64,000 nt of DNA, taken from Desulfobacterales bacterium (GTDB lineage: Bacteria > Desulfobacterota > Desulfobacteria > Desulfobacterales > Desulfosalsimonadaceae). The notes beneath the pieces were generated by a model. The model had not been told where the DNA came from. It saw only the letters and a list, made by a program, of their open reading frames with translations, and did no database searches. Where the stretch lies: NCBI GenBank assembly GCA_034520365.1, contig JAXHNP010000006.1:303001-367000 (forward strand), written 5' to 3'. How positions within the stretch are numbered: the first letter of the stretch is position 1; every line of letters starts with the position of its first letter. Position numbers and translations under genes: made by a program. Positions 20,132 through 46,943 of this stretch are shown piece by piece.

Positions 20132-20938
20132 ATGATGAATCTGGTCATTTCCTGTGCGCTGATTTTTATCGTGGCGGTCACCATGACCATGGTGGGCAAG
20201 GGGGGCGGCAATTTTTACGTGGTGATTCTGGCCATAGGCGGCCTTCCCATGCACCAGGCCGCCACTACCGGCCAGTTTATTCTTTTTGCCGCATCGGTTG
20301 CCGCCATGATCGTGTTTCAAAAAAACAAGGCCGTGTCATGGCCGCTGGCCCTTTTGGTCGGCGGCCTGACCGCTGCGGCCGCACTGGCCGGCGGTTATTT
20401 TTCGCATCTGTTCAGCGGTTTTGCCCTGAAAATCATATTTGCGGTCATGCTGGCCGCCGCCGGCGGGGTCATGCTGCTTCCGGTTTCCGAAAACAAGCAT
20501 CCGGAGCGAACCCCGAGGTTTGGTACATTACGCTTGAAATCCGGAGAGGATCGCTATTTTGTCAATTTATGGATCGCTGTGCCGGCTACAATACTGACCG
20601 GGATTGGCTCCGGCATGGTCGGTGTCTCCGGCGGCTCCTTTCTGGTGCCCCTGATGGTGGTCGCCTGCGGCGTATCCATGCACAAAGCCGTGGGGACATC
20701 TTCCACCTTGATCGCGGCCATTGCCTTTATGGGGTTTACCGGCCATGCCGTGCAGGGCGATTTTAATCCGCAATGGGCTCTGCCCCTGGCTGCCATGACG
20801 GTTATCGGGGGGATTCTCGGCGGGAAGTTCGCCCTAAACACCAAACCGAAATACCTCAAACAGGTGTTTGCCTATACCAACTGGCTGGCGGCCCTTTTTA
20901 TGGTCATCAATGCCTTTTATACAACAGGGGGCGTTTAG
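20132..20938 (+). CDS. TauE/SafE-family permease
   Basis: A 268-residue membrane protein with two homologous halves of about four helices each, with GKGGGNFYVVIL and GIGSGMVGVSGGSFLVPLM as the duplicated glycine-rich motifs. TauE/SafE proteins move sulfite, sulfoacetate, thiosulfate or similar anions. GAGGAGG precedes the ATG ATG start and the gene follows the rhodanese by 6 bp, so a sulfur compound is the likely substrate. Confidence 0.85.
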   Translation: MMNLVISCALIFIVAVTMTMVGKGGGNFYVVILAIGGLPMHQAATTGQFILFAASVAAMIVFQKNKAVSWPLALLVGGLTAAAALAGGYFSHLFSGFALKIIFAVMLAAAGGVMLLPVSENKHPERTPRFGTLRLKSGEDRYFVNLWIAVPATILTGIGSGMVGVSGGSFLVPLMVVACGVSMHKAVGTSSTLIAAIAFMGFTGHAVQGDFNPQWALPLAAMTVIGGILGGKFALNTKPKYLKQVFAYTNWLAALFMVINAFYTTGGV

Positions 20939-21937: not shown

Positions 21938-22044
21938 TTTTTTAACCAGAACGTTGGACCGCCAAGTTATAATTAACCCGAACCTCAATTTCTCAGGCGG
22001 CATTGTGCTGGCCGGCGGATGCATTAAAAGAGTTGGAGAAAACA

Positions 22045-24690
22045 ATGAAACATAAACTGTTGACCGCACTTACAGCCAGTATTGTCATGATTTTTTTGCT
22101 ACATTCGAGTGCAATTGGCTTAAATGCGGCACCGGCACCGACAGATGAATCCGAACAGGCGTATGAAGAAGCAAAAAAAGATGCCATGGGGATTTGTCCT
22201 CCCTTTTATCTGCGGGATAAAGAAGGAAACATCATCAATCCATTGGAAAATCGGAATGCCGATGTCCCTTATAGCCCCAAAAAAACCTGTGGTAAGTGCC
22301 ATGATTATAAAAAGATTACAAAAGGATATCATTTTCAGCAGGGTAAACTTTCAGAGATGAGCCACGCCTTTCAGGAAACCTATCCCTGGTGCACGAGTCC
22401 CGGTCAATATGGCGGCAGATGGTGAAGCCCCGGTCCTGTTTTCCCGCAGTTGGCGGGGAAAAATAATAGTTCTTCACAGTCAATTGACCTTACCTCTTAT
22501 ACCTTTATACAAAAATGCGGTGCCTGTCATCCTGGCGGCGGTTCTGCCGAATTAGACCGTAACGGGAACCGTTATGACAAATTTGCCGCTGACCCTGAAA
22601 ACAATATTACTTCCGGCGGACAAAACGAATTTGATGGCGATTATTTCAAGGCCAAATGGGCGAAAAGCGGTGTAATCGAGGCGGACTGTCTGATATGCCA
22701 CCTCAAGGATTATCATAACGAAAAAAGAAAAAACCAGATAACGGCCTTAAATTTCCGGTGGGCCGCGACTGCAGGGGCCGGGTTCGGTGAAATCAAAGGC
22801 TGTGTTTCCAATGGCGAAAAGCCAAAGGTGTCCTATAATTTTTCTGTTTTCCAGGAAAACGGCCAGGTGGTTTTGCCGATAACGCGAGAAGTGCGGAACG
22901 AAAAATGCCTTTTCTGCCACCGTGAAAGCGACTGGAAAAAGCGAGGGGCTTCCTTTAATTCAAGAACCGATGTTCATATACGCGCCGGTCTTCGTTGTAT
23001 TGATTGTCATGTAACCGGACGCAGCGCAAAGGACCCGCGTATTGAAGGCAGAGAGAGGCATCAGATTGGAAAGGGGGATGACCCCGGGGGGCTTGTGCGC
23101 AACGATTTGGATAATACGATGCGCAGCTGCGAAGATTGTCATTCTGAGGGCCTTTTGAATGCCCCGGTTGCAAAACATAGAGATCTACCTCCTGTGCATT
23201 TAGAGAAAATAGCCTGTCAGACATGTCATATTCCGTGGCGTCAGGTAAAGGCAGCCCTGGTGGAGGATGCTTCCGTTTTTAATACCAGTCCAAGGATTAC
23301 ACCGCCAGCCAAACGGATATGGTCGTTTTATGGTCCTGATATAAGACCATGGAATTACTATGGTTTTTTGCATGATTATCCGGAAGGCCTGCGCCCCGTT
23401 TTTCAATTCAGGCCTGTTGTGGGGTGGTACAAAGACAAGCTTTATCCGTTAAACAGGGTCTATACTTTGTGGGTTGGCATTAAAAAGAACAACGAGAAAG
23501 GCATCGACCAGCCATACATGAAAGATGTCTTCATGATGTGGAAAAGCCACCGGAACGATCCCGATAAGAACTATCCCCAGCTAGAGAAAATCAAGGATGA
23601 CAATCGCGACGGATTCCCGGAAGTCAATCGGCCTGAAGAGATCAAGGCACTACTGGCCTCAGTGACTTCAATGCTGAAACAAAAAGGAGAATCCCTGGAG
23701 GGGAAAAGGGTCGTATTCGTGGATGGTAACCGGTATACGGCTAACGGTATTGACTGGGAAACACTTTCCAAAAAGGCTCATGAATACAGCCCGTACGGAT
23801 CTGTGTTTAAATTCAGTCATGATATAGCCCCTGCGCAAAATGCATTGGGAGCAAAAGGCTGTACTGATTGTCACAGTTCAACGTCTGATTTCTTTTTCAA
23901 GGATATAATGGTAAAGCCTTTTGATCAGAGCGGAGAGGCCGTTACACAGCAGAATGCAGCTTTCATGAATTTTTCTCCTGCAGCGCTGCAACTTACCGTC
24001 TTTGAGCAAGAGATACTGAAACCATATGGTTTTTGGATCCTGTTCGCTGTTTTCTTTCTGGTCATTCTTCACTATGTCATTTTCGGCCCCAAAGATGTCA
24101 GGGGTAACGATCAGGATCCTGCTGACGTTCGCTTCAGTATCGGTGAAAGGGTCATCCATTATGTTTCGGTAGTTCTATTTGCCCTTTTGACAATAAGTGG
24201 TCTGATCACCTTCTCAGCGATTCCCTTTTCATCCGGTACAATTGGAATTATCCATACGTTTCACCATTATGCTGGCTATTTGTTTGTGCTCAACATGCTG
24301 CTGATTGCCGGCATCTGGTTCAGAGACGTTTTATTTGAGAAAAGTGATTGGCAATGGCTCAAAAAGCTTGGCAATTACTTCGGGTATCAGGGAAGATTGC
24401 CGGCAGACCGTTTCAACGCCGGTCAGAAGCTATATTTCTGGTTTATGTTGTTACTCGTCGCCATACTGGGAATCACCGGTGTCATGATCATCTGGACAAC
24501 GAACAGCAATCTGGGATTGATTGCCCATACGATTCATACTGTAGCGGCGTTTATCGTCATTGTTACTGTTATTGTCCATGCTTATCTGGGGACCCTTGCC
24601 AACCCGGGGACTTTAAAGGGTATTTTCGAAGGTAAGGTGATTGTATCAGGCATTGATGCGGATACCAAAGAGTCCTTAAACAATCCCTGA
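22045..24690 (+). CDS. Octahaem c-type cytochrome fused to a membrane cytochrome b domain, with in-frame UGA (candidate Sec)
   Basis: One frame of 881 residues if the TGA at 22423 is read through as residue 127. It has a signal peptide (about 1-28) and eight CxxCH haem sites: CGKCH at 82 before the TGA, then CGACH, CLICH, CLFCH, CIDCH, CEDCH, CQTCH and CTDCH. Four C-terminal helices follow with histidines (FHHYAG, HTIHTV), as in formate dehydrogenase gamma/cytochrome b561-type quinol-binding subunits. It should move electrons between the quinone pool and the periplasm. The TGA follows GGRW, a hairpin fitting the bacterial SECIS pattern starts 13 nt later, and the downstream part has no plausible own start or signal peptide. 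A nonsense mutation is the alternative. Confidence 0.75.
22439..22462 (+). promoter_or_regulatory. SECIS-like hairpin after the in-frame UGA at 22423
   Basis: TTTTCCCGC, loop AGTTG, GCGGGGAAAA: nine base pairs with one bulged G. The loop starts 22 nt after the UGA and has G at its second position. Both features fit the bacterial SECIS rules (loop 16-37 nt downstream, G in the first two loop bases). Confidence 0.6.
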
Positions 24691-24764: not shown

Positions 24765-25161
24765 TTGACAGGAGCAAAAGCGAAAGCTGCGGTTTGCATT
24801 ACCCTTGTCGTTTTCGCCGGCTCCCTGTTTTCTATCCAATCGGCTGCTGCTCAGGAAAACCGTATCGATAAAGAGATCCTCAAAATTCTTTACCGGAACG
24901 GCCAGATAAGTGCCGAAGAATACCAGCAGCTATTGGAAAAAGCCGGAGGGCGGATGGGGGGCCTGGGAAACCGCCTTGCGGTACTCCACTCTCGACTTTG
25001 CGGACAAGGATGTGGATGCCGGAAATCTGAACAACTACACCCTGGGGTTGAACGGGTATTTATATCCCAATCTGCGCATCATGTTAAATTATATCTATGC
25101 GGACCTGGAGAGTGCGGGCGTTACCCGCATCTTTCAAACCAGATTTCAGATTGATTTTTAA
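24765..25161 (+). pseudogene. Gutted phosphate-selective porin (OprP-like) relic
   Basis: The start (TTG with AAAGGAG upstream) encodes a signal peptide and the short N-terminal coiled coil (EILKILYRNGQISAEEYQQL), like the intact porin at 31700. Near 24950 the sequence jumps, with a frame change, to the last strands of the same family (GAWETALRYSTLDF to TRFQIDF). About 350 internal residues are missing. The stop overlaps the convergent TorD-like gene. Confidence 0.8.
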
Positions 25162-25777: not shown

Positions 25778-26878
25778 CTATTCGGGAGCCGCATCGAGTT
25801 TGAGCCACCGTTCGCCCAGGGTGTAGAGCAGCAGCATGGTGGATACGGCGGCCACAATGACCAAAATTTCCCATATGCTGGGAAAATAGGAAAGCACCTG
25901 GGGCAGTCCTTCGGCCTTCGGCCCCACGGGCCGGATCTGCCCGCCGATGAGAATCTGCATGTGCACCGCGAAAATGCCGACCAAGGTGATGGCAGGGGCG
26001 ACCGTTTTGGCCCAGGCCATTTGCCGCAGGCGTTTGCTCAGCATCATGGCATAGGGGATCAAAAGAAACAGCACGAGATTGAAATTGATGGCGGTGGCAA
26101 ACTCCGGCCGCGTGTAGGCCGATGCCAGGGCGAGCTTGAGCACGTAGAATATCAGGGAAAGCCCCAGCATGAAGCCGAACATGCGCGTAAGCGAATTCAC
26201 GGCGGCATCGGCCTGTTTCGAACAGGCCCCCGAGACCCACCGGCATACATTCATATACAGGATGATTGCCGCAATGCCCGAAAGCATGGCAATAATTAAG
26301 GAAAAGATGGCAATGAACGGACCAAAGTAGGTGGGCCGGGCCTCGGTGAGGCCGAATACCGAGCCGAGCATCAGCGCGGCAAATACCCCGCAGAGCATGG
26401 AGGCAGAGCCCAGCCAGCGGCTTGCGATCGAATGCCAGTCCCCCATGTGCATCTGCCACAGTTTAATGACAAGAAAGAGCAGCTCAAGGCTGTAAAGGGC
26501 CCCCATGTACCAGATGGGAGACGACAGGTTCGGAGACAGCATGATATAGATCATGTGGGTCAGCGACCCCAGCTCCAGGCCGATGCAGATAAAGGCGGCC
26601 ACCAGGGTGGAAATGGCCAGAAAGACGAGTCTTTTGGCCAGGACTTCAAACTGCGTGAGACCGAAAACCGAGGGCAAAGATGCCACCAGGGCCAGCCCCG
26701 TACTGGTCAGGGCGAAAAAAACGTATCCGCCCAGCGGCAGGGTCCAGATCAGCACGTCGTTTGCGTTGAACAGATAGTGCCCTTTCATAAGCAGCACGAT
26801 CGCCGTAAACAGGCCGATGCCCACGCCGGCCAGAAGCACGGCCATCCAGGGGACAAAAAGTTTTTTCGCGGAATTCAT
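25778..26878 (-). CDS. arrC: NrfD/PsrC-type membrane subunit (ArrC)
   Basis: A 366-residue polytopic protein, about ten helices, of the NrfD/PsrC family that passes electrons from menaquinol to the periplasmic Fe-S subunit. It overlaps the Fe-S subunit gene by 4 bp. Its place between arrB and the TorD chaperone matches arr operons that carry arrC and arrD. Confidence 0.8.
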   Translation of the reverse strand: MNSAKKLFVPWMAVLLAGVGIGLFTAIVLLMKGHYLFNANDVLIWTLPLGGYVFFALTSTGLALVASLPSVFGLTQFEVLAKRLVFLAISTLVAAFICIGLELGSLTHMIYIMLSPNLSSPIWYMGALYSLELLFLVIKLWQMHMGDWHSIASRWLGSASMLCGVFAALMLGSVFGLTEARPTYFGPFIAIFSLIIAMLSGIAAIILYMNVCRWVSGACSKQADAAVNSLTRMFGFMLGLSLIFYVLKLALASAYTRPEFATAINFNLVLFLLIPYAMMLSKRLRQMAWAKTVAPAITLVGIFAVHMQILIGGQIRPVGPKAEGLPQVLSYFPSIWEILVIVAAVSTMLLLYTLGERWLKLDAAPE

Positions 26879-27603
26879 GACACCTCTCCTTTGGTCTGCA
26901 GATACGTTCCGGGGTTAAAGCTCCGGATGTAGTAAATCTTGGGCTGGGTGCCCAGGTGCTCATTTAGGCGGTACGCCCGGTATTTGCCCAGCAGCTGGTT
27001 TACCACACTGGAAGGATTGTCCAGATCCCCGAAAATGCGGGCGTCTGCCGGACAAGCCTCGACGCAGGCCGGAAGCAGGCCCTTTTTGATGCGGTGGTCG
27101 CAGAACGTGCATTTTTCCACCACGCCCTTGGGCCGGATGCCGTCCAGGGTGCGTTCCCGCTCCGGGTTGTAATAGGGGATCGTTTTTCCGCCGACAATAT
27201 CGACCATCTCTTCGGGCGAAGTCGTGCAGCCTTCGATGAGCGCCTCTTTTTTGTGCCATTCCGGATGCGGCTTGCGCCAGTTGAAGTAAATCACGCCAAA
27301 CGGGCAGTTGAACATGCAGTACTTGCATCCGATGCACTTGTCCGGATCATGCATGGTAATGCCGCCTTCGGCCTTATGCATGGCCCGGGTCGGGCAGCCG
27401 CGCACGCAGGGCGCATTGTCGCAGTGGTTGCAAAGGGTCGGGGTGTAGTGATACCGGACGTTGGGGAAGGTGCCCGCGGTTTCGGTGATCTTGTAGGACC
27501 AGTAAATGCCGTCCGGGGTGTTGTTCTCGTTTTTGCAGCTGATAATGCAGGCGCCGCAGCCGACGCATTTCTGGTGGTCGATAACCATTGCCCATTTTGT
27601 CAT
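26875..27603 (-). CDS. arrB: Four-cluster ferredoxin subunit (ArrB)
   Basis: A 242-residue protein with four cysteine groups: CVGCGACIISC, CNHCDNAPCVRGC, CIGCKYCMFNC and CTFCDHRIKKG...CVEAC. This is the DmsB/PsrB/ArrB layout that binds four Fe-S clusters. No signal peptide is present, so it would be exported with the catalytic subunit. It follows the catalytic subunit gene by 15 bp. Confidence 0.85.
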   Translation of the reverse strand: MTKWAMVIDHQKCVGCGACIISCKNENNTPDGIYWSYKITETAGTFPNVRYHYTPTLCNHCDNAPCVRGCPTRAMHKAEGGITMHDPDKCIGCKYCMFNCPFGVIYFNWRKPHPEWHKKEALIEGCTTSPEEMVDIVGGKTIPYYNPERERTLDGIRPKGVVEKCTFCDHRIKKGLLPACVEACPADARIFGDLDNPSSVVNQLLGKYRAYRLNEHLGTQPKIYYIRSFNPGTYLQTKGEVS

Positions 27604-27618: not shown

Positions 27619-30189
27619 TTATATCTTGACGATCTTAACACGTGTGGTGCCGTAATAGGCCGAGGCCCCGCTCAACCGGTCGTAGTCGGCCGGAATGAGG
27701 TAGTTGTTGTTGCCGCCCCGGGGTTTTTTTCCGAAGACCTTTGCCGCGATCCGGCCGTAAGCCCAGTGGCCCTGGCCGTAGCACTTGGCCACGGTGCCGG
27801 GCCGTACGCCTTCCCAGCGCTTGACCGTGCACTCGATTTCCCCGGCCGGCGAGATGATCCGGATCGCATCGCCGTCTTGCAAACCGAGGTTTTTGGCGTC
27901 AATCGGGTTGAGCTTGGCCGCATCGGCTGATGCGGTATCCCCCGGGTCCAGGTCCTTGAGTTCGTAATACCAGCCGCAGTTGGCGGTGCGCCCCTCGCGG
28001 TTGAGCCGGGACTTGTGATCCACGAAAAGCAGCGGATATTCGTCCGGCTGCCCGTGAATGAAGGGATCTTCATGGTGGGGAACAAATGCCAGCTCGCCCC
28101 GGGCCTGGTAATTGCAGACCTCCAGCACGTGATCCACATTGGTCTGGTGTTTTTCTGCATGCTTTTCCAGGGCCTTTTTCAGGGTCTGGGAGTAGAATTC
28201 GAACATCCCCGTTTCGGTTTTCATCTTGCCCCACCTGGCGCGGTACGGGTAAGGGTCCGAGTTCCAGACGCCCCGTTTTTTGAATTCCGCCCACCCGTTG
28301 ATCTTGTCGCCGCCCTTATAATGCTTCGGGTCCCAAAGGTTTCTGGTGGCCATCTTTACGGCGTATTCGGCAAATTCTTTTTCATCGGCCGGAGCCCTGC
28401 CGGTCTCAGGATCTGCAAACTGCTCCACGTGGTATCTGTGGAGCCGATCAAAGCCCCGTTCGGCCAGTTTTTTGCCGAGCAGAAAAGGGATCTCGGTCTC
28501 GTCGATCTTGTAGTCAAACGGCATGTCGATAATCGGCTGCTGGAGCACCACGTGGCGGTAGCCGTGCCCGTAAGACTTGGTGTATCCCCATTTTTCAAAC
28601 TGGTGATGGGTGTCGGGCAGCAGGATGTCTGCAAACCAGGAAAATTCTGATGCATTGGTGGTGATGTGGACCAGGAAGGGGATCTTGGAAAGCGCCTTGT
28701 CCCAACGCTGTCCGCCGGGCGCGGAGAAGTTGAAGTTGTTCATGTAAGCCACGGCCACCTTGATTTCGTTGGGGTCTTCATCGATGATGCCATCCGCGGC
28801 CCGGTTGGTGTTGACCCCGCCGCCGGATTTGCCTTTCTTGAGGCAGGGAAATTCGAGCCTTCCCCGCTGGTCGATTTTTTCGTGTTTTTTGCCCTTTCCG
28901 GCAATGTCGTCCAAATATTGATCAAAATCGGGAAAACCGCTGGTATACTCCGTGTTCGCCTTGAGCGTGCCGCCCATGTTGTCCACCCCCCCGGTCAGTC
29001 CGTTTAGGGCATGGGTGGCCATGCAGCCGTATGCGCCGCGCACCTGCATGGAGGGCCCGCCGCCGACCCAGGACATCACGTTCGGGGCGGCAGAGGCGAA
29101 CTCCACGGCCACCCGATAAATCTGGTCGGCATCCACCCCGGCCTTTTCCGCCGCCCATTGCGGGGTTTTGTCCTTTAATTCCAGGTTCCACCACCTGACC
29201 AGGCCGTGGGTATATTTTTCCGCAAAAAGTTCTTCGTCCACCTCTTTTCCGGCGGCAAACCGGTTCTGGCCGTCCTTGAAATCGCCGACAAATCCCTTGT
29301 ACCAGAGGCCTTCGGTCAAAATAATGTGCGCCATGGCCACAGCGATTGCCCCGTCGCATCCCGGTTTTACCGGAATCCATTCATCTGCCTTGGCGGCCGT
29401 TGCCGAAAGCCGCGGCTCCACGATGGCCACCTTGGCCCGATCCAGGGCATTGCCCCAGGCCTTGGAATAATAGGATACCTGGCGGTTGGCAGCCAGGGGA
29501 TCGGCGCCCCAGAGCAGGATATATCGCGTGTTTTCCACGTCGTACTGCCGGTAGGCCCACAAGCCTTCTGTATAATAGGGGCCGAACTTTTCGCCTTCCG
29601 CACAAATGGTGCTGTGGGAGATATTGTTGGGCGAGCCGATGATCTTGGTCATCGAATCATAGAGAATGTCGCGCATGTAGGTGTAGCGGCCGCGCATGAG
29701 CATGTACTTGTGGGTCTCGTTGTTTTTGCGCAGTTCCATGATCCGGTCGGCGATCGTGTTCAGGGCTTCGTCCCAGGTGATCGGCACAAATTTCGGGTCC
29801 TGGTCGCGGCCCTTTTCCGGATTGGTTCTTTTCATGGGCACCTTGATCCGGTCCGGATCGTAGACCTGCTGCAGTCCCAGATGCGTTCTGGGACAGCTGG
29901 CCCCCATGTTGACCTTGGAATGGGGGTTGCCCCTGACCTTTACGGCCCTGCCGTCCACGACATAGACCTGCTTGGCGCACCAGGAGGTGCATCCCTGGCA
30001 ATTGGCCGGTTTCCATTCTCCGGCTCCGTTTTGCGGGGCTGCAGTGGCGTTTTTTACCGGCGTCAACGCCGTCAGGCTCAGCCCGGAGCCCAGCACTGCG
30101 CCCGCAGCCAGCGAGGACTTGACAAAAGTCCTGCGGTCCATCCGCAGGCCCGAACCATTGCTGTTGCTCATGGAATCGTCTTTTTTCAT
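27619..30189 (-). CDS. arrA: Respiratory arsenate reductase catalytic subunit (ArrA)
   Basis: An 856-residue molybdopterin oxidoreductase. It has a twin-arginine leader (DRRTFVKSS), the Fe-S motif CQGCTSWC followed about 27 residues later by the fourth Cys in GASCPRTH, and ISHSTICAEGEKFGP with the likely Mo-ligand Cys. FVGDF and TPQWA correspond to conserved ArrA segments, as do RGRYTYM and RQYDVENTRYILLWGADPL. It would reduce arsenate to arsenite in the periplasm for respiration. The start at 30189 follows AGGTGGG. Polysulfide or thiosulfate reductase is the alternative, but the motifs and the surrounding ars genes favour ArrA. Confidence 0.8.
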   Translation of the reverse strand: MKKDDSMSNSNGSGLRMDRRTFVKSSLAAGAVLGSGLSLTALTPVKNATAAPQNGAGEWKPANCQGCTSWCAKQVYVVDGRAVKVRGNPHSKVNMGASCPRTHLGLQQVYDPDRIKVPMKRTNPEKGRDQDPKFVPITWDEALNTIADRIMELRKNNETHKYMLMRGRYTYMRDILYDSMTKIIGSPNNISHSTICAEGEKFGPYYTEGLWAYRQYDVENTRYILLWGADPLAANRQVSYYSKAWGNALDRAKVAIVEPRLSATAAKADEWIPVKPGCDGAIAVAMAHIILTEGLWYKGFVGDFKDGQNRFAAGKEVDEELFAEKYTHGLVRWWNLELKDKTPQWAAEKAGVDADQIYRVAVEFASAAPNVMSWVGGGPSMQVRGAYGCMATHALNGLTGGVDNMGGTLKANTEYTSGFPDFDQYLDDIAGKGKKHEKIDQRGRLEFPCLKKGKSGGGVNTNRAADGIIDEDPNEIKVAVAYMNNFNFSAPGGQRWDKALSKIPFLVHITTNASEFSWFADILLPDTHHQFEKWGYTKSYGHGYRHVVLQQPIIDMPFDYKIDETEIPFLLGKKLAERGFDRLHRYHVEQFADPETGRAPADEKEFAEYAVKMATRNLWDPKHYKGGDKINGWAEFKKRGVWNSDPYPYRARWGKMKTETGMFEFYSQTLKKALEKHAEKHQTNVDHVLEVCNYQARGELAFVPHHEDPFIHGQPDEYPLLFVDHKSRLNREGRTANCGWYYELKDLDPGDTASADAAKLNPIDAKNLGLQDGDAIRIISPAGEIECTVKRWEGVRPGTVAKCYGQGHWAYGRIAAKVFGKKPRGGNNNYLIPADYDRLSGASAYYGTTRVKIVKI

Positions 30190-30367
30190 AATCCCACCTG
30201 TTTTTTCGTAATGATGTGAATCCACCCGGCACGTACTATATATTTTTTAAGGTAATCGTCTCGACAATAGATGCAAAAAATTAATTTACGGCAATGATAG
30301 CCCTGAAACCAAAAGCCGGCTGCAGCGTCTGCATAGAATCGCGATAAATTTGACCCGAAAAAATCTT

Positions 30368-30439: not shown

Positions 30440-31258
30440 TTGGAATCGAATAAAAATACCGAAAAAATAACCGCGGCCGGCATCAGCGAACTGGCCAAAG
30501 CACTGTCCGAGCCGATCCGGGTTCGCATGCTCATATGCCTTCAGGGGGGTCCGCTGAGCCTGCACCATTTTATTGAAATTTTTAAAATGGCGCCTTCCAC
30601 CCTGTCCAAGCACCTGCATATCCTGGAAAGCGCCGGCCTGCTGGCGGCCGTCCGGTATGGAAGATGGCGTCTTTACCGGTGGCCGGGGCGGAATGCAGAT
30701 CCGGCGGTCCGGCCTTTGCTTGCATGGCTGAGGCAAGTGGTGCTGGAGGATTCGGTGCTGGAAACCGATGCCGCCAGAAGGGCCGTGGCGGTACAATCAA
30801 CCCCTGTGCCCGCGGCAAAAGAAGAACCGGTGCGGGTATTGTTTCTGTGTTCCGGCAATTCCTGCCGCAGCCAGATGGCCGAAGCCCTGCTTCGCAAAAG
30901 GGGCGGTTCGGCTTACGAGGTCTGTAGCGCCGGGGTCGCGCCCCGGCAGATCCCCCCTCTGACCGTTACGGTCATGGATGAAATCGGCATCGACATCCGG
31001 GGCCAGAAACCCAAAAGCGTGATGGAATATATCGGCACCACCTATTTCGACTATCTGATCACGGTATGTTCCCTGGCAGAAGAACACACCCCGGTATTTC
31101 CCGGGGTCAGCCGCCGGCTGCACTGGCCCGTGCCCGATCCCGCAGAAGCCGAAGGTTCGGAAGAGGAGAAAAAACAGGTTTTCAGGCAGGTCCGGGATAT
31201 GCTGGATGAAAAGATCCGTGACTGGCTCGGTCAACAGGGCACCGGCAAGGGCCTGTGA
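30440..31258 (+). CDS. ArsR repressor fused to a low-molecular-weight-phosphatase-type ArsC
   Basis: A 272-residue fusion. Residues about 10-105 are an ArsR winged helix (APSTLSKHLHILESAGLL). Residues about 130-262 are a low-molecular-weight tyrosine-phosphatase fold with the P-loop CSGNSCRS (Cys137) and the DPAEAEGSEEEK motif found in ArsC-like proteins. The usual N-terminal As-binding Cys motif of classical ArsR is not evident. The start is TTG with AAAGG upstream. It is divergent from arrA across a shared operator, so it probably senses arsenite (or its own redox state) and controls the island. Confidence 0.85.
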   Translation: MESNKNTEKITAAGISELAKALSEPIRVRMLICLQGGPLSLHHFIEIFKMAPSTLSKHLHILESAGLLAAVRYGRWRLYRWPGRNADPAVRPLLAWLRQVVLEDSVLETDAARRAVAVQSTPVPAAKEEPVRVLFLCSGNSCRSQMAEALLRKRGGSAYEVCSAGVAPRQIPPLTVTVMDEIGIDIRGQKPKSVMEYIGTTYFDYLITVCSLAEEHTPVFPGVSRRLHWPVPDPAEAEGSEEEKKQVFRQVRDMLDEKIRDWLGQQGTGKGL

Positions 31259-31516: not shown

Positions 31517-31611
31517 CTGCTGCGCCGGCACCATCTGATTGCCTGAATTATGAAGCGATAGTTGCCGGGCCCCGCGCTGATGATTAAAGATATAAAAAGA
31601 ACGCCTGCGGG
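31517..31611. repeat. 95-bp intergenic repeat, copy 1
   Basis: About 88 percent alike by eye to 33152-33246. Each copy lies upstream of a gene (porin; SQR-like flavoprotein). In this copy GGCCCCGC and GCGGGGCC, the latter just past the repeat end, can pair across about 30 nt. It could be a mobile repeat or a structured RNA leader. Confidence 0.6.
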
Positions 31612-31699
31612 GCCCCATCATAGTCAAGTGACATTGGGAGACTTAGCAGATAGTGAAAGTTCAAATTCAAATTCAAGTCAAAAAGGAGGAGAAAGGCAA

Positions 31700-33019
31700 A
31701 TGAAACGTTTTAATCCGTTTGGAGGGTCATTGAGCCGGAAAGCGGCGGTTGTACTGTCGGTTCTCGCATGTGTTTTCGCATTTGCTGCGGCGCCCGCTGC
31801 GGCGGAGAAAAACACCACAGAGGAGATTCTGGATATCTTAAAACAGCAGAACCAGATTTCGGATTCCAAGTATGAAGAGCTCAAAAGCAACCTCCACAGT
31901 GAAAAAAGCAGCTATGATGTGAACTTCGGCGGGCGAATCATGGTTGACTGGGCAAACATCAGTGCCGATAACAGCTTCGATAATGACCTGGGCGGCGGCC
32001 TGGACGGAGACGGCGTGGAATTCCGGCGCGCCCGTCTTTTTGCCTCAGGTTCATTCGAAAACAATGCTTTTTTTAAAGCGCAATACGATTTTGCCGGCGG
32101 AGACGCCGACTTTAAGGACATGTACATCGGCATGAAAAAGGTTCCGGCCATAGGAAACATAAAGATCGGTCATTTCAAGGAGCCGTTTTCTCTGGAAGAA
32201 CAGACCAGCAGCAAGTACATCACCTTCATGGAGCGGGCTCTGCCCAATGTTTTTTCCCCGGGCAGAAACACCGGTATCATGGCATATGACTCCGCTCTGG
32301 GAAAACGCATGTCCTGGGCCATAGGCGCGTTTTATGACGCCGACGGCTTCGGGGAAAGCTTCAATGATCATACGGACATCAATGTTACCGCCAGGGTCAC
32401 CGGGGCGCCGGTTTACGCTGAGGACGGGAAAAAGGCCGTGCACCTGGGCATTTCCTACACCCGGCAGTTCCGGGATGAAGACGAAACAACGCTTAATTAC
32501 AGGCAGCGGCCGGAAGCGCATATAACCGGCGTGCGCCTGGCTGAAACCGGCGACTTTGGTTTTGACGACGCGGATATCATGAATCTGGAGGCGGCCACGG
32601 TCATGGGACCGTTTTCTGTGCAAGGCGAATACATGCAGAGCTTTGTGGGCTCGGACGCGGCATCTGATCCAAGCTTCAGCGGCTATTATGTGTACGGCAG
32701 CTATTTTCTCACAGGCGAAAGCCGCAATTACAAGCCCGGTTCAGGATCTTTCGGCAGGGTTAAGCCAGACAGGGACTTTAATTTCCATAAGCCGGGAGCG
32801 GGTGCATGGGAGCTCGGCGTGCGCTACTCAAGCCTGGACTTAAACGATGAGGCAATTGGGGGCGGCGAATTAAGCGATTTGACGTTAGGGGTCAACTGGC
32901 ATCTTAATCCCTACGTTCGCACGATGCTCAATTACGTGTATGCAGATCTCGAAGACCGCGCCGGCGTGGATGATGACAGCGCCAACATTGTTCAGGCCCG
33001 GTTCCAGGTTGATTTTTAA
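31700..33019 (+). CDS. OprO/OprP-type anion-selective porin
   Basis: A 439-residue outer-membrane protein with a signal peptide (about 1-34), a short N-terminal coiled coil (EEILDILKQQNQISDSKYEEL) and a barrel of the phosphate/polyphosphate-selective family ending ARFQVDF. AAAGGAGG precedes the ATG. In an arsenic island such a porin may admit arsenate or phosphate to the periplasm for ArrA and Pst; it is driven from an operator-bearing promoter and closed by a strong terminator. A gutted paralogue lies at 24765. Confidence 0.85.
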   Translation: MKRFNPFGGSLSRKAAVVLSVLACVFAFAAAPAAAEKNTTEEILDILKQQNQISDSKYEELKSNLHSEKSSYDVNFGGRIMVDWANISADNSFDNDLGGGLDGDGVEFRRARLFASGSFENNAFFKAQYDFAGGDADFKDMYIGMKKVPAIGNIKIGHFKEPFSLEEQTSSKYITFMERALPNVFSPGRNTGIMAYDSALGKRMSWAIGAFYDADGFGESFNDHTDINVTARVTGAPVYAEDGKKAVHLGISYTRQFRDEDETTLNYRQRPEAHITGVRLAETGDFGFDDADIMNLEAATVMGPFSVQGEYMQSFVGSDAASDPSFSGYYVYGSYFLTGESRNYKPGSGSFGRVKPDRDFNFHKPGAGAWELGVRYSSLDLNDEAIGGGELSDLTLGVNWHLNPYVRTMLNYVYADLEDRAGVDDDSANIVQARFQVDF

Positions 33020-35929: not shown

Positions 35930-36967
35930 ATGAAAACCATGGCAAAAATTAAAATGACCCTGCTGGCGCTGGCCGTTGCCGCAGCTTTTGCAGCCGTCTG
36001 GGCCGCCCCGGCCGGGGCCCAATCCTCGGCCCTGAGCGGCAAGGTCGTGGTGGACGGATCAAGCACCGTCTATCCCGTTACCGAGGCGGCAGCCGCGGCA
36101 TTCCGGGATGACTTTCCCAACGTCAATGTAACGGTTGCCATATCCGGGACCGGCGGCGGGTTTAAGCGGTTTGTCAGGGGCGATACCGACATCTCGGATG
36201 CCTCCCGGCCGATTAAGGCAAAGGAATTCAAGGCGGCCGCGCAAAACGGCGTGCGCTTCATCGAGCTGCCGGTGGCCATGGACGGGCTGTCCGTGGTGGT
36301 CAATCCAAAAAACGACTGGGCAGATGAGCTGTCCATCCAGGACCTGCAGGCCATTTATCTCGAGGACGGCACAGCGCGCAAGTGGAGCGATCTGGACCCG
36401 GCATGGCCGGATGAGCCCATCAAGGTCTATTCCCCGGGCACGGATTCGGGCACATTTGACTATTTCAGGGAAGTGGTTCTGCCTGAAGGCAAAAGTTTCC
36501 GGCCCGATATGTCCACCAGCGAAGATGACAATGTCCTGGTGACCGGGGTTTCCGGAGACCGGTACGCCATCGGCTATTTCGGGGCCGCTTATTATTACGA
36601 AAACAAAACAAAGCTCACAGCCGTGCCCGTTGTCAACCCCAAAACCGGCAAGGCGGTTCTGCCCGAGCCGGAAAACGTGATCAACGGTGATTATTTTCCC
36701 TTAAGCCGTCCATTGTTTATCTATGTTAATTTTAACTCCCTGCGCCGGCCGGAAGTGCGCGAATTTGTAAACTTTTACCTTGCCCATGATGATCGGTTCG
36801 CAACAGAGGTGGGATACGTGGCCGTTCCCGATGAAATCGGGTCCCGGGCGGAAAGCTTTTTAAAGCAGCGCCTGACGGGCACCACCTATATGACCCCGGA
36901 AATGGAAAAGCGCGAGGGCGGATTAAACGCCATCTACAAAAAAGAAAACCTGCTGGACACGAAATAA
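35930..36967 (+). CDS. pstS: Phosphate ABC transporter substrate-binding protein
   Basis: A 345-residue PstS with a signal peptide (about 1-35), VDGSSTVYPVTEAAA and GTGGGFKRF near the phosphate site. It binds periplasmic phosphate (and could bind arsenate). AAAGGAG precedes the ATG. The ArsR-type operator upstream suggests that the operon is induced by arsenic rather than by, or in addition to, phosphate starvation. No Pho box was evident to me. Confidence 0.9.
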   Translation: MKTMAKIKMTLLALAVAAAFAAVWAAPAGAQSSALSGKVVVDGSSTVYPVTEAAAAAFRDDFPNVNVTVAISGTGGGFKRFVRGDTDISDASRPIKAKEFKAAAQNGVRFIELPVAMDGLSVVVNPKNDWADELSIQDLQAIYLEDGTARKWSDLDPAWPDEPIKVYSPGTDSGTFDYFREVVLPEGKSFRPDMSTSEDDNVLVTGVSGDRYAIGYFGAAYYYENKTKLTAVPVVNPKTGKAVLPEPENVINGDYFPLSRPLFIYVNFNSLRRPEVREFVNFYLAHDDRFATEVGYVAVPDEIGSRAESFLKQRLTGTTYMTPEMEKREGGLNAIYKKENLLDTK

Positions 36968-37937
36968 ATGACATCCCAATCCACAGACCAGCGGCCGCCT
37001 GCGGATCTGCCCGGGGCACCCAACCCCAAACGGATGCGTTCGTTTCGGGCCCAGCGGATTCCGGGAAACGGGCATCATCGGGATACTGGCGGGATCGGCC
37101 CTGTTTTCCATACTGGTGACCCTGGCCATTGTCCTGATCCTCGGGATCGAAACCGCCCATTTTTTCGGCCAGGATGAGGTGAGCCTGGGGGAGTTTTTCG
37201 GGCAGGTGAAGTGGAATCCCCTGCTGGGGGCTGAAAAACACTTCGGCATCTGGCCGCTGGTCTGCGGCACGTTTCTGGTGGCGGGCATCGCCCTGATTGT
37301 GGCCGTGCCCATGGGGCTTGTGACCGCCATTTATTTAAGCGAATATGCCGGCAGCCGGGTGCGGGCTGTGGTAAAGCCGGCCCTGGAAATTTTGGCCGGC
37401 ATTCCCACGGTGGTGTACGGATTTTTCGCCCTGGTGTTGCTGACCCCGGGGCTGAAAATGCTGCATGAGGGATTTGGCTCCTACAACGCCCTGGCCGCCG
37501 GCATTGCCGTGGGCATTCTGATTCTGCCCATTGTCAGCTCCCTGTCCGAAGATGCGCTTCGCGCTGTGCCATCGAGCCTGCGGGAGGGCGTATACGGGCT
37601 GGGGGGAACCAAGTTTGATGCGGCTGTCAAGGTCGTGTTTCCGGCCGCCCTTTCCGGGATCATTTCCTCGGTTCTTCTGGCTGCGGCCCGGGCCGTGGGA
37701 GAGACCATGATCGTTGCCCTGGCCGCGGGCAGCACGCCCAGGCTCACACTGGACGTGCGCGAGGAAATCCAGACCATGACCGGGTTTATGGTCCAGATGG
37801 CCCTGGGGGACGTGTCGAATTTCGGGGTTGAATATTTTTCCATGTACGCGGTGGCCGCCACCCTGTTTGTGATTACATTCATACTGACGATTCTCGGGGC
37901 GGTCATCCGGAAACGGTTTCGGGAGACATACGAATAA
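36968..37937 (+). CDS. pstC: Phosphate ABC transporter permease PstC, frameshifted near its N-terminus
   Basis: The permease frame is intact from about 37062 to 37937 and ends with the inner-membrane loop and IRKRFRETYE. The ATG at 36968 directly after the pstS stop opens a frame (PNPKRMRSFRAQRI) that must shift by one base near 37060 to enter the permease frame at RETGIIGILAG. The first start inside the permease frame is a GTG at 37116, which would remove most of the first membrane helix. One missing or extra base, real or erroneous, explains this. Confidence 0.75.
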
Positions 37938-39160
37938 TGACGACAATTGCCCAAAAAGCCCCGGATGTCATCTCTGATCCCGGACGCATGCAGGCGGTGC
38001 GGCGCTCGGTTGCCGGGCGTCACCGCACCGAGAGATGGTTCAGGCGCATCTGTTTCGGGATCACCGCCTTTGCCGTGCTGCTGCTGGTGCTTTTTCTGGC
38101 CGCCATCCTTTATAACGGCATCGGGACCCTGTCGCAGCACTTTCTTACTGCACCGCCGGGCCCGGATCCGTCCCAAGCGGGATTTTATCCCGCCATCTGG
38201 GGGACGGTCTGGCTGCTGGTCCTGGTGGCGGTTTTTACCCTGCCCCTGGGGATTGCCACGGCCATTTTCCTGGAAGAATTCAGGCCCAGGAGGCAATTGC
38301 TGCGCCGGGCACTGGCATTTGTGCAGGCCAATATCACCAACCTGGCCGGAGTGCCCTCGGTGGTTTACGGTATCGTGGGCCTGACCGCTTTTGTCTCCAT
38401 GTTCCAGCTCTTTGGCAGTCCCAACAGCCCGGCCTTTGAAATGGGCATCCAGTATTATGATCAGTTCTACAACCAGGCCGGCGTGGTGATGCTCGTGCCT
38501 GTCAACAGGCCGGATGCGCCGTATACGGACCCGGAGCAGGGCATGACGGCAATGACACCGGAAGGCGAGGGCTTAAAAGTTCATGTCATCGACGCAGACG
38601 CCCCCTGGCCGGAAGATGAGACTCTTTCCGCACGAACCCTCCGGGAAAACGACATGGCCGGCCGGATTGACCGCCGGCAGTGGTATTATTTCCGGATTCC
38701 GTTCGGCCGCGGGGTTCTGGCCGGGGCCCTGACCCTGATGCTGGTGATTTTGCCCATTGTGATCATCTCCGCTCAGGAATCGCTGCGGGCTGTGCCGGAC
38801 TCCCTGCGGGAGGCCGCCCTCGGTCTGGGGGCCACGCGCTGGCAGGTGGTGCGCCGGGTCACGCTGCCCTCGGCCCTGCCCGGCATCATGACCGGCGCCA
38901 TTCTGGCCATCAGCCGGGCCATCGGGGAGGCCGCCCCGCTTTTAATGATTGCCGGCATCGTGTTTATTTCCAATCCGCCGGGCCATTTAATGGATGATTT
39001 TACAGCCATGCCCCTGCAGATCTTCAACTGGGCCCAGCGGCCCCAGGCTTCGTTTCATGAAATCGCCGCCAGCGGAATCATCGTTTTGCTGGCTGTTTTG
39101 CTGACTTTTAATGCTGCGGCCGTGCTGATCCGGCAGAAATTTCAGAAACCGCTTTCATAA
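37937..39160 (+). CDS. pstA: Phosphate ABC transporter permease PstA with a periplasmic insertion
   Basis: A 407-residue protein; PstA is usually about 280-300. The extra length is an N-terminal extension plus a soluble stretch of roughly 85 residues (about 160-245, from [20 protein letters not shown] to [14 protein letters not shown]) between membrane helices, likely periplasmic. The EAA-type loop ([19 protein letters not shown]) is intact. Start ATG overlaps the pstC stop (TAATG). Confidence 0.85.
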
Positions 39161-39180
39161 AAGAAAGCCAAAACCAAAAA

Positions 39181-40005
39181 ATGAATGCAATGATGCATAC
39201 AGACTTTCAGAAACAAAAAGCAGCCGGGGATGAAGACGCCGGCCGGGACGCGTCCCCGGCTGTTTACATGGAAAATTTCAACGCCTGGTACGGGACTTTT
39301 CATGCTTTAAGAGATATTGATCTGAGCCTGTCCAAACACCGGGTTTCGGCCTTTATCGGCCCCAGCGGCTGCGGCAAGAGCACGCTTTTGCGCTGGATCA
39401 ACCGGATGAACGACACCATATTGACGGCAAGGGCCGAGGGGCGACTGACCATGCATGACATTGATGTGCTGTCGCCCGCCACCGACGTGGTGGAGCTGCG
39501 CCGCCGGGTGGGCATCGTGTTTCAAAAGCCCAACCCGTTTCCCAAGTCGGTCTACGAAAACGTGGCTTTTGGCGTGCGCATGCACATGCGCGTCACCCGG
39601 CAGGAGATGGACGAGCTGGTGGAGTGGTCCCTTTGCCGGGCCGCACTCTGGGACGAGGTCAAGGACCGGCTGCATGATTCGGCCTTGAGCCTTTCGGGCG
39701 GGCAGCAGCAGCGGCTTTGCATCGCCCGGGCCATTGCCGTGGGACCGGAGGTGCTGCTCATGGACGAGCCCTGTTCCGCCCTGGACCCCCGTTCCACGGC
39801 CGCCATCGAGGATCTGATCTGGGAGCTGCGAAAGGCCTACACCATCGTGATTGTCACCCACAACATGCAGCAGGCCGCCCGGATCAGCGATTACACGGCG
39901 TTTTTGTATACCGGCGATATTATTGAATATGGCACCACCGAGAAATTGTTTCAAAACCCGGACAAGCCGGAAACCCAGGACTACATTACCGGCCGGTTTG
40001 GATAA
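39181..40005 (+). CDS. pstB: Phosphate ABC transporter ATPase
   Basis: A 274-residue ABC ATPase with Walker [10 protein letters not shown], the PstB Q-loop region [18 protein letters not shown], signature LSGGQQQRL and Walker [12 protein letters not shown]. It energises PstCA. It lies 20 bp after pstA and is followed closely by the PhoU fusion. Confidence 0.95.
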
Positions 40006-40024
40006 AAAAAGGAAACCGCATTTT

Positions 40025-41152
40025 ATGTCCACCCGATACCGAAACGAAATCAACGAGATCCGAAACAGCCTGGCATCTCTTGCCGGCCGCGTGGCCGACA
40101 ACGTGAACCGATCGTTTGCCGCAGTCATTGCCGCGGATGCGGCCGCCGCCCGTGAGGTGATCCGGGCCGAGCACGAAATCAACCGAAAGGAGGTCGGCCT
40201 GGAGGAAGACTGCATCCGGATGATCACCCTGCACCAGCCCGTGGCCGATGATCTGCGGTTTTTGCTGGCCACACTGAAGGTCAACCACGACCTGGAAAGA
40301 ATCGGGGATCTGGCCGCAGGGGTTGCCAAGCGCATCCATGTGGTGACGCCCCAAGACGCGGAGCCTTTCCAGGAGGCCCTCCGGCATCTGACCGGCGACG
40401 TGGAAACCCGGCTCCGGCAGAGTGTGGCCGCATTTTTTGCAGCAGACCACAAGGACGCCACCCGCATCTGGATCGGCGATGATGCCGTGGATAACGTGGC
40501 CTCGGCCCTCTACGATGACATCCGGCAGACGATTTTAAAACAGCCGCAGCAGGCCCGGGCTTTTTTCACCCTGCTCGAGATCGCCCAGCGCATTGAACGT
40601 CTGGCCGATCATGCCGCCAATATCGCCAAAAACGTCATATACCTGGCCTTAGGCGAAATCGTGCGCCACCGGATGCGGGAATTCCGGCGGGAGGCATTGG
40701 GGGACAAGCCCAATGTCCTGATGGTGTGCGTGCACAACAGTGCCCGCAGCCAGATGGCCGCGGCCTGGATCAATCATCTTTACGGCGAGCGCGTGCACGC
40801 TGAAAGCGCCGGGCTGCAGCCCGGCCGGTTAAACCCCCTGACCGTGGAGGTGATGAAGGAAGTGGGCATCGATATTTCCGGGGCCCGGCCCAGGGACGTG
40901 TTTGAGGTGCTGCGCACCGGTCATCCCTTTTCCCACGTGGTGATGGTCTGCGATGAGACCAGCGCTGAAAAATGCCCGCCCTTTCCGGGTGTTCAGGAGG
41001 TACAGCACTGGGAACTGCCTGATCCGGCCGCCGGACAGGAGGCATCCCAGAAAATCGAAAATTTCCGGCAGGTCCGCGATGAGCTGCGCCGGCGCATCGA
41101 GGGCTGGGTGAAAGGTATGGGGTCGGTGTGGGGTATGGGGTCAAATCTTTAA
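40025..41152 (+). CDS. PhoU fused to ArsC-type arsenate reductase
   Basis: A 375-residue fusion. Residues 1-218 are PhoU (two three-helix bundles, with NHDLERIGDLAAGVAKRI and IERLADHAANIAKNV). Residues 229-365 are a low-molecular-weight-phosphatase ArsC with the P-loop CVHNSARSQMA (Cys235) and MVCDETSAEKCPPFPG. The pairing would put arsenate reduction at the Pst transporter that imports arsenate. The last codons (MGSNL and stop) are encoded by a RAYT terminal repeat, so the native end is truncated or replaced. The ATG at 40025 was chosen from the PhoU N-terminus. Confidence 0.9.
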   Translation: MSTRYRNEINEIRNSLASLAGRVADNVNRSFAAVIAADAAAAREVIRAEHEINRKEVGLEEDCIRMITLHQPVADDLRFLLATLKVNHDLERIGDLAAGVAKRIHVVTPQDAEPFQEALRHLTGDVETRLRQSVAAFFAADHKDATRIWIGDDAVDNVASALYDDIRQTILKQPQQARAFFTLLEIAQRIERLADHAANIAKNVIYLALGEIVRHRMREFRREALGDKPNVLMVCVHNSARSQMAAAWINHLYGERVHAESAGLQPGRLNPLTVEVMKEVGIDISGARPRDVFEVLRTGHPFSHVVMVCDETSAEKCPPFPGVQEVQHWELPDPAAGQEASQKIENFRQVRDELRRRIEGWVKGMGSVWGMGSNL

Positions 41153-45722: not shown

Positions 45723-46943
45723 ATGGCGCGCTTAAATCAAATGACAGAACCGATGCGAACCCACATTGCGGACTTACCATGTCCGCAATTTGACACAACC
45801 CCATGGACAGCCGGCACTAAACTGGAAGAACAACGGGTTGCCATTGTGTCTACGGCCGGGCTTCATAAAAGAGGTGATCGGCCGTTTCAGGGGATAGAGG
45901 GCGATTATCGGATTATTCCGGGCAATACTATGGCAAATGAACTGGTGATGACCCATGTCTCCACCAATTTTGACCGGACCGGCTTTCAGCAGGACTGGAA
46001 CGTGGTCTTTCCCCTGGATCGTCTCCGGGAACTTGCCGACGAGGGCATTATCGGAAGCGTGGCAAATTATCATTATTCGTTTATGGGGGCAGCAGATCCT
46101 TCGCAGATGGCTTCCCATGCCGAAAACCTGGCACAACTGCTGAAGGGAGACGGGGTGAACGCGGTGCTTCTGGTGCCTGTCTGACCGTTTTGCACGCGCG
46201 CCGTGGGCGCGCTCGCACACTATCTCGAGCGGGAATCTATCCCCACCACGCAAATCAGCCTGATTTACGAACACACCGAAAAAATACGCCCCCCGCGGGC
46301 GCTGTGGGTGCCGTTCGAGCTGGGGCGGCCTTTGGGGACTCCGGAGAATGCCCAATTCCAGAAAAAAGTGCTGCGGTCGGCTTTGGAGCTTCTCGAAGCT
46401 GAACAAGGCCCCGTATTGGCGGCTTTTGAGCAAGAGGCCCCGGCATCCGGCAGCGAAAAGTCTGCTGAAGCAGATGCCTGGTCCTGCCCGGTGAATTTTT
46501 CACCTCCCCGGCAGGAAGAGACAGACTCGGAAGAACGGGTATCCGCATTCAAACGCGAAATGGCCCAACTCCGCCCCTGGTACGATCAGGGCATGGAAAA
46601 ACGCGGTCGTACGGCCATGACCGATTTCGATCCGGAAACCGCAGCGGCAATCCTCTCCAATTATTTGCTGGGCGAACATGTTGAAATTCCGGGCCAGGAC
46701 ATATCACTGGCCGTTGCCCTTCGTCTGGCCGCCCAGGATTTGAAGGCTTTCTATTTCGAGGCCGCAAGTTCGCGGCCCGGTGCCCGGGCACCAGATATCG
46801 GCGAGTTCGCTGAGTGGTACTGGAACCAGACCGCAGCGGGCTGGATTTTAAAAGAGATACAGAAGAAATGTGCCGGCGAGCAGGACAAGGACCTCCGGCT
46901 GACCGGGAAAATGTTTCTTGTGCCGGCAGGGCAAAACGCCTGA
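45723..46943 (+). CDS. GrdB/PrdB-type selenoprotein (UGA-encoded Sec at residue 154)
   Basis: One frame of 406 residues with a TGA at 46182. The N-terminal part (VAIVSTAGLHKRGDRPF, DYRIIPGNTM, TGFQQDWNVVFPLDRLREL) matches selenoprotein B of the glycine/betaine/sarcosine/D-proline reductase family. The TGA falls in VLLVPV-U-PFC, the expected Sec-x-x-Cys site. A perfect 7-bp hairpin with a GTG loop begins 11 nt after the UGA. The C-terminal half continues the family (ALWVPFELGRPLGTPENAQF). AGAGGAGGG precedes the ATG. No other reductase subunits are nearby, so the substrate is unknown. Confidence 0.9.
46196..46212 (+). promoter_or_regulatory. SECIS hairpin of the GrdB-like selenoprotein
   Basis: GCGCGCC, loop GTG, GGCGCGC. 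The loop begins 18 nt after the UGA and starts with G, fitting the bacterial SECIS rules. Confidence 0.75.

Follow-up and report, generated by a model that had tools for sequence, protein, structure and literature searches.

Does a single in-frame UGA in a gene for a multihaem cytochrome mark a selenoprotein, and what might selenocysteine (Sec) do in such a protein? The question is raised by a gene at 22045–24690 (+) in the 64,000-nucleotide stretch of Desulfobacterales DNA analysed here (the window). We approached it through the reading frame, the homologues, the RNA downstream of the UGA, the Sec genes of the organism, the known multihaem families and the gene neighbourhood.

One reading frame with eight haem motifs and one UGA

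The frame has a TGA at 22423–22425 (+), codon 127, as its sole internal stop and terminates in a TGA of its own. On the basis of its frame, domains and homologues, we read it as an octahaem c-type cytochrome with a C-terminal cytochrome b domain, a selenoprotein of 881 residues with Sec at position 127; the assignment of the internal TGA to Sec draws on UGA/Cys exchange among homologues. As the preliminary description had it, one CXXCH motif precedes codon 127 and seven follow, giving eight. The N-terminus resembles a signal peptide, as read from the translation, and a Shine–Dalgarno-like GGAG (22035–22038, +, read from the sequence) stands 6 nt upstream of the ATG at 22045. For the part after the TGA, the sole start in the list of open reading frames is a TTG at 22450, which falls within the conserved alignment.

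Residues 696–863 (24130–24633, +) match cytochrome b561/FdnI-type domains and hold a probable quinone site. This region scored 76.5 bits against PF01292, above the Pfam gathering cut-off of 30.1, and 96.2 bits against TIGR01583, under the equivalog cut-off of 115.85. It resembles FdnI-type cytochrome b and formate dehydrogenase gamma subunits but differs from them in being fused to an octahaem domain. Four helices had been counted previously, whereas a low-confidence AlphaFold model from 7 sequences, with a mean pLDDT of 38.9 and unusable as a structure, suggests five long helices in the C-terminal membrane part. In one relative, a Nitrospirae record (L033), a gene with a PF01292 cytochrome b domain adjoins the octahaem gene. 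The L088 type, a Cys homologue, seems to have no membrane domain.

UGA and cysteine exchange in close homologues

Homologues were sought among the window's relatives, in the order, in a phylum sample and in genome contigs, and the residue aligned to codon 127 was read by profile alignment. A family match at E ≤ 1e-40 occurred in 55 of the 395 phylum-sample genomes, counting the own genome, UGA, Cys and distant members together; no relatives were found among viral contigs. Three genomes of the same genus (G001, G002 and G003; completeness 92, 94 and 71%) had no match to the octahaem gene, so its distribution is patchy.

Across 74 homologous loci the column held UGA in 36, Cys in 13 and another residue in 25, although L053 and L071 probably represent one gene split over two contig ends and, the sequences being related, counts of UGA, Cys and hairpins are not independent events. 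Within the close clade, all 31 rows had either UGA (19) or Cys (12), which is the outcome that the preliminary description had looked for in an alignment. It had also named varied residues at this position as a sign against Sec; these do occur, but only in distant members (25 of the 74 loci), where the column includes Cys, Ile, Ser, Thr and others, and not in the close clade. The UGA and Cys rows alone require four changes across the whole tree. That tree was built by a quick method from 70 of the 74 rows with the Sec column excluded, and 16 of its 67 inner branches are open; L014, L036, L071 and L192 were omitted (profile scores <250 bits), L010 was kept despite its score, and the long branches of L069 and L200 join.

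Two rows stand apart. The Nitrospirae record L033 has UGA among eight Cys rows, and its hairpin (L033:4280-4340) has a GGUCU-type loop, which we take to be E. coli fdhF-like, and not AGUU(G). Because of this UGA amid Cys rows and the different loop, L033 suggests that Sec was regained, or was kept with a new hairpin. L092 (G421) has a Ser codon (TCA) at the Sec position; the hairpin core CCAGTTGGCC persists beside it, so Sec seems to have been lost here recently.

A SECIS-type hairpin constrained by comparison

Starting 13 nt past the UGA, a bacterial SECIS-type hairpin (22439–22461, +) was present as earlier described: 22439–22447 pairs with 22453–22461 in nine pairs, one of them G–U, around the loop AGUUG (22448–22452), and the UGA-to-loop spacing is 22 nt. 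The bSECIS rules, as given in the relevant passage of a 2026 review (PMC13188914), are a loop of 3–9 nt with G in its first two positions, a stem of 4–16 bp, a spacing of 16–37 nt and a minimum free energy (MFE) of ≤ −7.5 kcal/mol. The window hairpin, which alone folds at −12.3 kcal/mol, lies within these bounds. Single-sequence folding was unremarkable, with z about −0.9 and 35 and 39 of 200 shuffles folding equally well; for both longer stretches the MFE structure was another fold, and the hairpin appeared only as the centroid of the second. The case for the hairpin is comparative: the single-sequence fold is not significant, and it is among the homologues that the check for a SECIS-type hairpin, proposed in the preliminary description, came out positive.

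For the comparison, guided by the published bounds, we used a fixed rule (a perfect stem of ≥4 pairs, a loop of 4–7 nt with G in the first two positions, and a spacing of 16–37 nt), which was drawn up after the sequences had been seen, with synonymous-codon recodings as the control. A hairpin by this rule was found at 35/36 UGA sites, 0/13 Cys sites and 6/25 other sites. Against the recodings, the stem score reached p<0.05 at 30/36 UGA, 0/13 Cys and 0/25 other sites. The close UGA relative L030 has no hairpin by the fixed rule and has one with a 3-nt loop; the best hairpin of L011 differs (loop GCGAAAA, p 0.09), and the top-scoring hairpins of L189 and L190 lie in another register, not AGUU.

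Around AGUU(G), the stems are clade-specific yet paired: UUUCCGC/GCGGAAA, UUUCGCC/GGCGAAA, GCAGCC/GGCUGC, GCGGCC/GGCCGC and CGAGCC/GGCUCG. Covariation was tested on a six-pair stem in the AGUU register, which takes in 23 of the 36 UGA rows (15 distinct sequences). The other register, AGUUG, is that of the window gene and takes in 10 UGA rows, and L030, L033 and L051 are without the AGTTGG word. In the AGUU register, 93.3% of cells were paired, 14 cells carried changes in both partners and covariation scored 0.435, values reached by 0/500 shuffles and by no slid version of the stem, in a test that favours pairing in that rows were assigned to registers by better pairing. Two further measures were ordinary, namely pairs with both-side change (191/500) and further pair types (105/500). 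Judged by these sequence comparisons, the hairpin is constrained in the family.

An earlier scan, which combined a stringent site finder with global folding and covered 19 sites, had returned hairpins at 3/8 UGA, 1/11 Cys and 16/48 random sites, with no separation of UGA from random; it was replaced by the profile-based site finder and the stem score with synonymous-codon controls.

Selenocysteine machinery

The sel genes that the preliminary description had proposed to look for are all in the genome: selA (623 bits), selB (361 bits), selD (382 bits) and a tRNA-Sec (78 bits) with the anticodon tca. The selD gene has an in-frame TGA itself. We surveyed 58 genomes, 30 with the UGA form and 28 with Cys or other forms, leaving out those of records L030, L033 and L034. 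Of the 30 UGA genomes, which are additional to the own genome, 26 gave SelB at E ≤ 1e-60, and the remaining four have tRNA-Sec above the cut-off. SelB likewise occurred in 27 of the 28 genomes that have Cys or another residue, so it is no predictor of the UGA form.

Relation to known multihaem families

The preliminary description knew of no multihaem cytochrome that is a selenoprotein, and this does not hold. Table 1 of PMC13188914 lists ExtKL (NF040886) as a multihaem selenoprotein and the ‘tetrathionate reductase family octaheme c-type cytochrome’ (TIGR04315) in a Sec form, GenBank annotated. The own genome also has, outside the window (G000:C3:255560-256858, +), an octahaem gene of TIGR04315 interrupted by an in-frame TGA, and for this reason two kinds of octahaem selenoprotein probably coexist in it.

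TIGR04315 (PDB 1sp3) shares with the window family the number of CXXCH motifs, eight, and a Cys or Sec located between the first two haems, and a TIGR04315 profile of 15 proteins matched that of the window family over 205 columns from haem 3 onward (99.4%, E 1.7e-21). In the haem 1–3 part, the local match was 51.7% (E 1.5e-4), the global match was 0.7% and the Sec columns failed to align. Sec precedes the first Cys of haem 2 by 10 residues in TIGR04315 and by 31 in the window family; the Sec motif is NNFU or NSFU in most TIGR04315 proteins, as against GGRWUSP in the window protein, and the fused cytochrome b domain is unlike TIGR04315. The TIGR04315 profile scored the window protein at 32.1 bits, short of the cut-off of 375.

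Counted on the alignment, the Cys/Sec of TIGR04315 is equivalent to residue 64 in chain 1sp3. In the Shewanella enzyme this Cys lies close to the active-site haem, which has a Lys ligand. Among 30 TIGR04315 loci in the phylum sample, 13 had Sec, 16 had Cys and one was missed by the motif; Sec forms look common (for example, L206, L210, L211, L216, L217 and L220).

ExtKL, which belongs to the ext cluster of Geobacter (PMC13188914, PMC5877670), is likewise a multihaem c-type cytochrome with a single Sec, but has five haems, a model of 423 positions and its Sec towards the C-terminus in AGHxIPDGUP. With NF040886 (cut-off 250 bits), the own genome had no match at E ≤ 0.001, and this model was absent from the window protein's hits. 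Membership of the window protein in ExtKL or in TIGR04315 was rejected on the profile scores. Solved structures gave marginal matches only, the pentahaem nitrite reductase NrfA being weakly similar (best E 0.0014); this likeness is local, and the window protein differs in its eight CXXCH motifs.

Because the window protein falls in neither the ExtKL nor the TIGR04315 profile family, its family looks new, as far as profile comparison can tell. Although widespread in the phylum sample, the family was not found in Table 1 of PMC13188914, whose identifiers share only TIGR04315 with the NCBIfam matches of the window protein. Among the matches listed in a search of literature titles and abstracts, none describes it; it could sit in the supplementary list of 31 Sec proteins of PMC2702500. 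Annotations may miss the family, since an ordinary gene caller would split the gene at the UGA.

Arsenic genes in the neighbourhood

Downstream of the cytochrome, on the minus strand, lie genes for an NrfD-like membrane subunit (25778–26878; PF03916, 52.5 bits), an ArrB-like iron–sulfur subunit (26875–27603; NF041715, 333.4 bits, below the cut-off of 450) and an ArrA-like molybdopterin oxidoreductase, a relative of arsenate respiratory reductase (27619–30225; NF041714, 1329.3 bits, below the cut-off of 1600; next family, 232.7). ArrA and ArrB are by far the best-matching families for these two neighbours, yet both scores are under their cut-offs. On the plus strand follow an ArsR–ArsC fusion (30440–31258), matching NF033788 (59.1 bits, cut-off 55) and TIGR02691 (121.5 bits, below 174.3) in one protein, and a porin of the phosphate-selective O/P family (31562–33019; PF07396, 207.1 bits). 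Further on (35930–41152, +) are genes for a phosphate-type binding protein, an ABC transporter and a fusion of PhoU with a low-molecular-weight phosphatase (ArsC-like) domain (39851–41152, +), the second fusion besides ArsR–ArsC.

Directly behind the cytochrome gene, 24765–25160 (+) appears by eye to be a porin remnant, with a signal-peptide- and coil-like start and a barrel-like end in another frame; a Pfam scan of the 129-residue open reading frame in this interval returned no porin domain.

We compared 37 family loci (487 kb in total, including the window, several of them short) with 40 control regions of 16 kb (640 kb) from 15 genomes, which were hand-picked at round coordinates and not random; the query families were chosen once clusters had been seen, and the family loci share ancestry, so that the counts are not independent. 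Arsenic markers were present at 13/37 family loci against 0/40 controls (Fisher p 2e-5, kinship ignored) and absent from 24/37, several of which are short. By kind, they were Acr3 (7 loci), ArsP (6), ArsC (7), ArsM (3) and ArrA (1); by centre residue, they accompanied 7/24 UGA, 6/8 Cys, 0/4 other and 0/1 mixed loci. At one locus (L130; G405:C10:56000-74000), an ExtKL selenoprotein gene adjoins the octahaem selenoprotein gene, and Acr3 and an ArsP-type permease complete a group within about 9 kb.

A proposed periplasmic selenoenzyme and its alternatives

The selenoprotein reading offered by the preliminary description gains support from the UGA/Cys column in close homologues, the SECIS-type hairpin and the Sec genes. 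We consider it very probable that the octahaem gene gives one full-length selenoprotein, in which UGA 22423 would be decoded as Sec through the hairpin at 22439–22461, SelB and tRNA-Sec(UCA). The product would be exported and bind eight c-type haems in the periplasm, with the cytochrome b domain as a membrane anchor that probably trades electrons with the quinone pool. On balance, we also favour a place for Sec127, between haem 1 and haem 2, at the active site, where its selenol might bind or attack a substrate beside a catalytic haem, or where it might serve as a haem ligand.

That arsenic genes are sometimes found near the family suggests a periplasmic selenoenzyme for arsenic or sulfur compounds. 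A substrate of this kind, which might be an oxyanion or thioanion of arsenic and/or sulfur, is a tentative proposal to which we give slightly less than an even chance; thioarsenate would fit arsenic-type and sulfur-type neighbours alike. In its most specific form, the proposal would be a new selenoenzyme class, a menaquinone-coupled periplasmic octahaem reductase or oxidase whose haem-adjacent Sec forms a Se–As or Se–S intermediate with arsenate, thioarsenate, arsenite or polythionate; we think this speculative and rather unlikely. If true, octahaem Sec enzymes, Sec-form TIGR04315 included, would make up a wide and hardly studied area of the anaerobic chemistry of arsenic and sulfur. One polypeptide would unite a reactive selenol, a multihaem wire and a quinone-type domain, and the arsenic neighbourhood opens the way to a direct functional test.

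The substrate could instead be a sulfur or selenium anion (tetrathionate, thiosulfate or selenite), with the arsenic neighbours incidental, and this is quite possible, although we lean against it. A TauE/SafE-family exporter gene precedes the cytochrome gene in the window (20132–20938, +), and relatives were found near the cytochrome at 5/37 family loci, this one included, against 0/40 controls. Alginate-export-type porins (7/37 against 0/40) point the same way, as do the distant kinship with the tetrathionate reductase family and the adjoining ExtKL gene in G405, ExtKL being a multihaem selenoprotein from a selenite/tellurite cluster. RND pumps occurred at 7/37 family loci and 1/40 controls, and no single arsenic marker exceeds the porin or the pump (7 loci each). 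Arsenic markers combined, however, cover more loci (13/37), and the window itself has the ArrA/ArrB-like genes and the ArsR–ArsC fusion.

A less likely alternative is that Sec is made but the protein is a mere electron conduit, passing electrons from quinol to the ArrA-like or another enzyme or to an outer acceptor, with Sec structural or a haem ligand. Fusion of a multihaem protein with a quinone-type cytochrome b is a common make-up of electron conduits, ArrA/ArrB-like genes lie next door, and Cys, Ile, Ser, Thr and others replace Sec in distant members. Nevertheless, Sec is costly and in the close clade is swapped only for Cys, which argues for reactivity, and TIGR04315, a related family with a studied member named as a tetrathionate reductase (PMC7096707), has Cys or Sec in the same inter-haem segment.

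We regard it as very improbable that the gene is decaying and that the TGA replaces a former sense codon, either by ordinary nonsense mutation or through an error in sequencing. The porin-like remnant just downstream would suit decay, and damage is seen in some homologues: L010 shifts frame, as does the draft of L034 (Desulfothermus okinawensis), which carries the UGA region, L035 has a TAG, and a wider-reaching search of relatives found three TGA in G006 and one TAA in G008. Against this, the TGA recurs in that alignment column at 36 of 74 loci, other stops are nearly absent inside the homologue matches of the order and phylum searches (33 TGA including the window, one TAG and no TAA), and downstream stem pairing is kept through compensatory changes.

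That the UGA is read as another amino acid, by Trp decoding or near-cognate readthrough, is scarcely credible: UGA-Trp codes are known elsewhere and the distant L094 has Trp at the aligned position by profile alignment (Ile in another alignment), but Cys is the sole alternative in the 31 close rows, the Sec machinery is complete, the SECIS-type hairpin goes with UGA and is missing from Cys genes, and the octahaem gene itself terminates in TGA.

A second selenoprotein gene in the window

A second selenoprotein gene, which the preliminary description had placed at 45723, spans 45723–46943 (+). Its UGA (46182–46184) lies in the motif VPVUPFC, and the frame runs on to a TGA at 46941; the motif is presumably that of the glycine/proline reductase B type.
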